DNA from: Antennarius striatus
Taxonomy: Eukaryota; Chordata; Actinopteri; Lophiiformes; Antennariidae
DNA length: 64,000 nucleotides
Reading direction: 5' to 3'
Assembly (NCBI RefSeq): GCF_040054535.1
Contig: NC_090798.1
Location: forward strand, 1,740,501-1,804,500
The position numbers were made by a program, and so were the translations under genes. This document shows positions 28,601-31,600 of this stretch, piece after piece (position 1 is the first letter of the stretch; each line of letters begins with the position of its first letter). The notes beneath the pieces were generated by a model. It had not been told where the DNA came from, ran no database searches, and saw nothing but the letters and a program-made list of their open reading frames with translations.

Positions 28601-31600
28601 GGAGATAACCGGTACTACACTCGTAACGCACCACTTCGGGATAGATGTAACTTCCTCGAGCCATGCCATTTGCAAGATCGCCCAAGTCGCCGCAAGACAC
28701 GGGTCGGCAAGTTGGGGCGTCATTAGTCCAGAGTTGACCCGATACGCACTCCCTCACCGCCTCGCCGTCCAGCTCGTATCCGTCCTCACAGGTGTAGGTC
28801 ACCATGACGCCCAGAGAGGTGTGAGTCACGTTCACCCAGCCGTGTTCTGGACCGGGAAGCGATTCGCACTCCGCTTGGATGCAGGACGGCGCCGTCCCGT
28901 TCCACCGTCCGTCTTCCTGACATGTCAACCGGGTGGCGGTGGTGAGGTCGTAACCTTTATGGCAACGGTACTCGATTGACGTCCCATGAAGAAAGCTCAA
29001 GTCCGTCGGCGAGGGGGTGTCTTTCAAATTGGTCACCCTCACGTATTCCCCGAAGTCGATGTGAGGAGGAAGACCGCAATCCGAAAGCACGCAAACGGGA
29101 ACAGAACTGGACCAACCGAACTCCTCGCAGGTCAGGTGATCCTGACCGACCAGTTGGAAGCCGGGGAAGCAACTGTAGAATATGGTCACGCCAAAACTGT
29201 GATCTTGGCCCTCGACGAACCCGTTCTCGATCGGTTGGGGCGGGGTGCAGGACATCTGCACGCACGCCGGCGGCCGGGCGTCCCACTCCCCGCTGGCGAG
29301 GCACGTCTGAGTCTCCGGGCCTTGGAGGCGGAATCCGCGGCGGCAGGAGAAGGAGATCCTGTGACCGAACTGGAGTTTGGTGTAAACCACTTTCCCGTTG
29401 GTGATCTGTTTCGGAATTGGACATTCGATTGGTCGGCAGGAGGGAACACCCCCAATCCAGAGCCCCTTCTCCCCACACAGGACGGTCGAGTTGCCCACTA
29501 AATTGTAGCCGGTCTTGCAGCTGTAAAGCGCTTTACTGAGATAAAGCAACCCCTGAACGTCGACGATACCATTAGAGACCTCAACGGGTTGGGGGCATTC
29601 CACCGGGATGCATTCTGGGTAAGGGCTGCTCCACTTCCCGCTGGCGAGACACGTCACGGAACCTTCTTTTTTTAACGTGAAGCCATCCATGCAGGCGTAC
29701 CTCACCACGGAACTGAAAGGGAACGGTGGGGAGGGCGAGGAAGGCCCCCCGAAAGGCACTTCGGGTAGGGGGCCGCAAAACACCTGCTTACACACCGGGA
29801 AGGTGTCGTTCCATTCCTGGGACGGGGTACAGCGGAGGATGTGCGCCCCTTCCAGGACGTAGCCGTCCTCGCAGTATAATTCCACCATTGCGGATTCGGA
29901 GTCCACGCCCTTCAGGAGGAGGTGGTTCTCCTCCAGGGGGGGTTCTGGACACTGCACCGGGGAGCAGCGGGGGCTCCTGGTGTGATCCCACCTCCCGTAC
30001 TTCAGGCAGGTCCAGGTGGGATCTCCCAGCAGCTCGTAGCCCTCGTCGCACACGTACTGCACCTTACGGCCCACCTGGAAATCAGACCCCCGGTAATGTC
30101 CGTGGACGACGTTGGGAGGGGGGTCGCAGGTCAGGAGGACACAGGTGGGGGGGTCGGTATTGGACCACTGCCTGTTGGCTTGGCAGACTCGATCTGGACG
30201 CCCGACTAGTCGGTATCCTGCGTTGCAGGCGTACGTCACCTTGCTGTTGTAGGTGATCCGAACTCTGCCCTGGAGAAAAATATAGAAAATTATAGAAATA
30301 TATAGAAAATATAGAAAAAATATAGAAAAATATAAAAATATAGAAAATATAGAAAATATGGAAAAATATAAAAATATAAAAATATAAAAATATAGAAAAT
30401 ATAGAAAAATATAAAAATATAGAAAATATAGAAAGATATAGAAAAATATAGAAAAACAAATAAATATTGAAAAATATAGAGAAATTTAGAAAAATATGGA
30501 GGGATATAATCAGGTTTAGATAGGAATTATTGGCAGATTCCTGGAAATACTATAATCTGAAAGTCACCTGAATGTGTCCGTTCTTGAGTACCGGCGGCTG
30601 GGAGCAGGGAACCGGTACGCAGGTTGGGAGAACCCCCCCCCACTCTCCGTTGGCCTTGCAGGTCCTCCTCTTCTCCCCCCGGATGACGAAGCCTTTATCG
30701 CAGCTATACGCCACCACGGCGCCGAAGCTGTAATTGGTTCCGCTCAAGTAGCCGCGATCGATGCTGTCAGGCCTGGAGCACCTCACCGGCACGCAGCCAA
30801 TCCCGTACGGCGAGGGCTCCCAGGCTCCGCCCATCAGGCACCGCAGCGTGGCGGTGGAGTTGAGCGTGAAGCCCTCCTCGCATTTGTAGCTCACTTCCGT
30901 GTTGCTGGTGTATTTGGGCTTGTTGATCGATTCTAAAATGGCGTGGGGCAGCTCGGGCGGGCGGAGACAGAAGTTGGCGATGCAGCGGGGGGCGTCCATG
31001 CCGTCAGGGGGGGCCCAGATCCCCTGAGCGTTGCACACCATCTGGGAGTTGTTGCTCGACGTGTAGCCGTCGATGCAGTAGTAGTTCGCCGTGTCTCCAA
31101 ACAGCTGGTGGCTTTCGTAGGGTTCGGCGTGGTCGATGTCGGGCGGGGGGCCACAGGAGCGGGGGACGCACTGGGCGGAGCTGTCGCTCCAGTCGCCGCT
31201 CGGTAGACATTCTCTCGTCTCCGGACCAATCAGAGTGTAGCTATGAAAGAGATGAAATCTGGATATCAGTACATCTGTTTGTGATTGCCGACACGGTTTC
31301 CAAACCAGTAAACCCAGACGACCTCTGACCCCTGAGTAGACGTCAGCTACATTTACCCTTCTTTGCAGACATAGTGCACCTTGTTTCCCAGCTCATAGTT
31401 CTGTCCTACGGTCACCGCGTCTCTCAGGGAGGGGGGCTCGCTGCACAGGACGCTCACGCAGCGCAGGACGGGCCGGCTCCACTCCCCCGACGCCAAACAC
31501 ACCACCTCCATGGAGGCCTGAGGTCTTCACACCAACACACCATTTAGTTTACACACCTACTAATAGTAATGAATGGACTTTAAATGTATTGTTTTAGTTA

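Follow-up and report, generated by a model that had tools for sequence, protein, structure and literature searches.

A fish SVEP1/Polydom orthologue with an enlarged CCP21 loop that lacks the mammalian EDDMMEVPY motif

SVEP1 is a matrix protein of blood and lymph vessels. Does the SVEP1 protein of a fish carry the site through which the mammalian protein binds integrin alpha9beta1? In mouse SVEP1 the integrin-binding domain is CCP21, the 21st sushi domain, and the Tie1 site (E2567, G2568) lies in CCP20 (PMC10281526). The same paper, citing the 2012 discovery (Sato-Nishiuchi 2012), describes the sequence EDDMMEVPY in CCP21 as "only conserved in mammals". This restriction is already published, and the only detail added here is that a shorter loop remains at its place. 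The DNA under study, hereafter the window, is a stretch of 64,000 nucleotides from Antennarius striatus (contig NC_090798.1). The fish side of the comparison is one sequence from one genome; on the mammalian side a paper supplies the nine-residue motif together with the numbering of domains and residues, and the remaining letters of the mammalian domain are provisional.

Identity of the gene and numbering of its domains

The minus strand of the window proved to be the coding strand of the SVEP1/Polydom gene, a strand that the first-pass annotation had left unstated. SVEP1/Polydom is made up, in order, of ephrin-receptor-like, hyalin (HYR), EGF and pentraxin domains, a long sushi array and terminal EGF repeats (PMC12549020), and this set was recovered from the frames of the window. 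Pfam Sushi matched 15 stretches of a stop-free frame at 27573..30485 (minus strand), while Ephrin_rec_like, Pentaxin and EGF matched in other frames and HYR in all four frames tried; two of the three terminal EGF stretches were scanned, both matching EGF_2, and the third was recognised by eye. We conclude that the gene is an ordinary fish orthologue of SVEP1/Polydom, the start of which may lie outside the window. A sequence search of the PDB matched 112 distinct sequences, and among the best 60 of the 112 none was named SVEP1. A viral_contigs search with part of CCP20 together with CCP21 found eight stretches fitting the pattern, none of which was confirmed.

The frame at 27573..30485 contains a giant exon running from the second half of CCP14 to the first half of CCP29, as judged by profile hits and Pfam Sushi; the limits given are those of the stop-free reading. 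Just upstream of this exon in the direction of the gene, a degenerate repeat of considerable length, rich in A and T and of the ATATAGAAAA type, occupies 30278-30500, apparently at the 3' end of the intron before it.

To number the sushi domains, a CCP profile was made out of 11 of them, CCP21 included, and the count started at the N-terminal side. The profile was run over all window frames of at least 15 residues, hits above 5 bits were kept, and half-domains split by introns were joined by hand. A 20.0-bit hit at 40370 was counted as CCP4, and the first half of CCP14 was taken from the frame ending at 30550, where no profile hit was listed. Seven weak hits (5.1-8.3 bits) were excluded, five on the minus strand (43766, 40753, 39254, 13352, 10090) and two on the plus strand (21023, 12714). 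By this count the domain containing HIDFG is the 21st (28866..29081, minus strand; 69.6 bits), an interval that takes in one residue before the first cysteine of CCP21 as well as the first cysteine of the next domain. Its four cysteines and conserved W align with those of ten other CCPs of the array, and structure prediction gave five strands with a mean pLDDT of 85.8 and a pTM of 0.67, the input alignment being 11 domains of the same protein. The 11-residue start of the domain, on the HIDFG side, occupies 29049-29081, and a 13-residue stretch with HGTS occupies 28950-28988 (both minus strand). According to the first-pass annotation, the 11-residue start is the same in mammalian SVEP1.

Further to that, the numbering could be checked independently, as CCP20 (29076..29252, minus strand) holds the published Tie1-binding residues at the published offsets. 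In the mouse, E2567 and G2568 are essential for the Tie1 site, with V2566, A2569 and I2577 contributing (PMC10281526). The fish residues at these positions are V, E, G, Q and I, so that four of the five are identical, both essential ones among them, and only A2569 is replaced. Thus the fish domain is like mouse CCP21 both in its 21st position and in having the Tie1-site CCP20 directly before it, and the count and this neighbour together support its identity independently of the first-pass annotation. At the level of these residues, the predicted contact with Tie1 is kept.

The loop of CCP21 and the place of an integrin site

Between HIDFG and HGTS the fish domain has 20 residues (28989..29048, minus strand), three of them acidic and two basic, at the site of the long acidic loop of mammals. 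This loop contains no D-x-x-E. It also contains no EDDMMEVPY-like stretch, in line with the first-pass annotation, which had reported no ED-rich or MEVPY-like sequence here; the short spacing that the annotation described holds as well, with 20 residues in place of the roughly 25 it gave. The EDDMMEVPY block of mouse CCP21, with D2638 and E2641, is absent from the fish domain, and we regard it as confirmed that this fish lacks the mammalian alpha9beta1 motif in the orthologous domain.

The same annotation spoke of teleost SVEP1 at large, a generalisation from a single genome, and it went too far in holding that the loop itself is lacking. In CCP21 the spacing between the first and second cysteines is 38. 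The frame has 13 other complete CCPs, of which 12 show a spacing of 25-28, and in the thirteenth an additional cysteine at 17 precedes the one at 25. The excess over most neighbouring CCPs amounts to some 12 residues, and alignment with ten domains of the array places a 12-residue insertion at the loop position relative to most of them. In the structure prediction no strand is assigned to CCP21 residues 17-34, and the lowest mean pLDDT, 64, falls in block 21-30. CCP21 is therefore a sushi domain of the usual kind in which a single loop is moderately enlarged, and not a loop-less one.

In a provisional human sequence, CCP21 has 54 residues from HIDFG to the next strand, compared with 20 in the fish. 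Aligned with this provisional stretch, fish CCP21 matches on either side of a 34-residue gap that covers the motif block. The human letters place the Tie1 and integrin residues 71 and 74 apart, as published for the mouse, which makes them credible, short of proof. When the last 14 residues of the fish loop were compared with the provisional end of the human loop, only 2 of 20,000 shuffles were as good in an anchored test; this test fixes the downstream end, where F-L-x-G-T belongs in part to an ordinary CCP strand. The freer tests, with the same provisional letters, were weaker, 151 of 5000 shuffles being as good in local alignment and 67 of 5000 in global alignment. Sequence comparison of this kind suggests that, within a loop that was already long, the acidic block probably either arose in mammals or disappeared in fish. 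A more specific history is possible, if somewhat doubtful: the long CCP21 loop would be ancestral to bony vertebrates, the acidic integrin block would have been inserted on the mammal line only, and the fish loop would serve another partner. On this view an older Tie1 ligand would have acquired, in mammals, a foothold for integrin.

It could be argued that integrins still bind the fish loop despite drift in its sequence, an 11-residue stretch of it contacting alpha4beta1 or alpha9beta1 through an aspartate. The retained enlargement, the absence of a predicted strand and the likeness of the distal part to the end of the provisional mammalian loop would all fit such a site, as would the published assignment of integrin binding in SVEP1 to CCP21 (PMC9805129). 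However, the two residues that were mutated to abolish alpha9beta1 binding of the mouse protein, D2638 and E2641 (PMC10281526), have no counterpart in a loop devoid of D-x-x-E, and at their offsets from the Tie1 site the fish has L and L, offsets that are only indicative because the fish block is shorter. We consider a drifted site very unlikely.

Also very unlikely is that fish SVEP1 has the motif, or something that replaces it, at another place. A six-frame scan of the window in contiguous pieces of at least 15 residues, from which a motif split by an intron would escape, found no 9-mer matching EDDMMEVPY at five or more of the nine positions; three 9-mers matched at four positions including both critical residues, and 20 shuffles gave 0-7 such matches each. 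Matches are thus at chance level, and a hidden motif elsewhere in the window was rejected for frames of at least 15 residues. Another exon or sushi domain bearing the motif, which the first-pass annotation had named as one test of its claim, did not emerge above chance in these frames. An alternative cassette exon was rejected as well, since the loop lies within a continuous frame, which makes a separate exon there unlikely. The candidate substitute is EDGYEL in CCP22, the domain following CCP21 (28692..28871, minus strand), where it starts near 28787 and runs downwards. EDGYEL, or CEDGYEL with its cysteine, happens to resemble the alpha9beta1 motifs of fibronectin EIIIA and tenascin-C. It is nevertheless a turn that CCPs commonly have behind their second cysteine, further CCPs of this array repeat the D-G-[YF], and cells adhered less to SVEP1 CCP22, which served as the control (PMC9805129); EDGYEL was rejected as a replacement site. 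Least credible is an assembly artefact, with an exon piece missing from the genome sequence, for one genome sequence is the sole source but the frame, all four cysteines and the flanking residues are intact and the motif has been published as conserved in mammals only (PMC10281526).

Integrin and Tie1 functions in fish

We suggest that this is, with high probability, an SVEP1/Polydom orthologue in which the CCP21 loop is enlarged but devoid of EDDMMEVPY, in which binding of alpha9beta1 through CCP21 is likely absent, and in which the Tie1 contact is predicted to be kept. This agrees with the published description of non-mammalian orthologues: the Tie1-site residues of CCP20 are conserved in chicken, Xenopus and zebrafish, as four of the five are in this fish, and the integrin motif is limited to mammals (PMC10281526), the comparison being one with the published description. 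One missing peptide is not proof of missing binding, because cells with alpha4beta1 as well as cells with alpha9beta1 adhere to SVEP1 CCP21 (PMC9805129). No assay of fish CCP21 was found in the SVEP1 literature searched.

How much the integrin site contributes in mammals bears on this reading. A full-length mouse protein with a mutated motif lost alpha9beta1 binding and still fully promoted migration of lymphatic endothelial cells, and knockdown of alpha9 left the migration response of these cells unimpaired (PMC10281526). Loss of SVEP1 leads to lymphatic defects in zebrafish and in mice (PMC10281526), and both zebrafish Svep1 and human SVEP1 are able to bind Tie1/TIE1 (PMC10129328). Zebrafish mutant for alpha9 show a vascular defect in lymphatic valves only (PMC8977097), and valve defects in svep1 mutant zebrafish are given as unknown in PMC9299638. 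Since lymphatic defects follow SVEP1 loss in both animals and the Tie1 site is kept, Tie1 explains the shared function better than integrin alpha9. Tie1 would then be the main route for the vessel functions that fish and mammals have in common, fish SVEP1 would most likely do without alpha9beta1 binding via CCP21, and fish alpha9 may rely on different ligands, for example fibronectin EIIIA or EMILIN1.

The advice of the first-pass annotation that work in fish should not assume the mammalian adhesion site stands, the motif being absent from the orthologous domain. It is a useful caution for zebrafish studies, as the mouse integrin site is missing in this fish: the alpha9beta1 result is cited in the discussion of Svep1 adhesion in one zebrafish paper (PMC8977097), and a lymphatic-valve review that deals with zebrafish presents Svep1 and Itga9 as a linked pair known from mammals (PMC9299638).

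Other features of the sushi array

Following an EGF domain at about 33.8 kb, the sushi tail of the gene extends over 23726-33712 (minus strand) with 29 domains counted, a number that leans on hand-joined half-domains, one of them a 7.2-bit hit; the human sushi tail has 28 (PMC12549020). Comparison with provisional human letters suggests that the extra domain is in the final stretch, below 26.9 kb. The 27th domain (27828-28001, minus strand), which starts CNHPVVKF, contains an additional cysteine, placed between the canonical first and second ones, and CRPCMC is read in the stretch preceding it.
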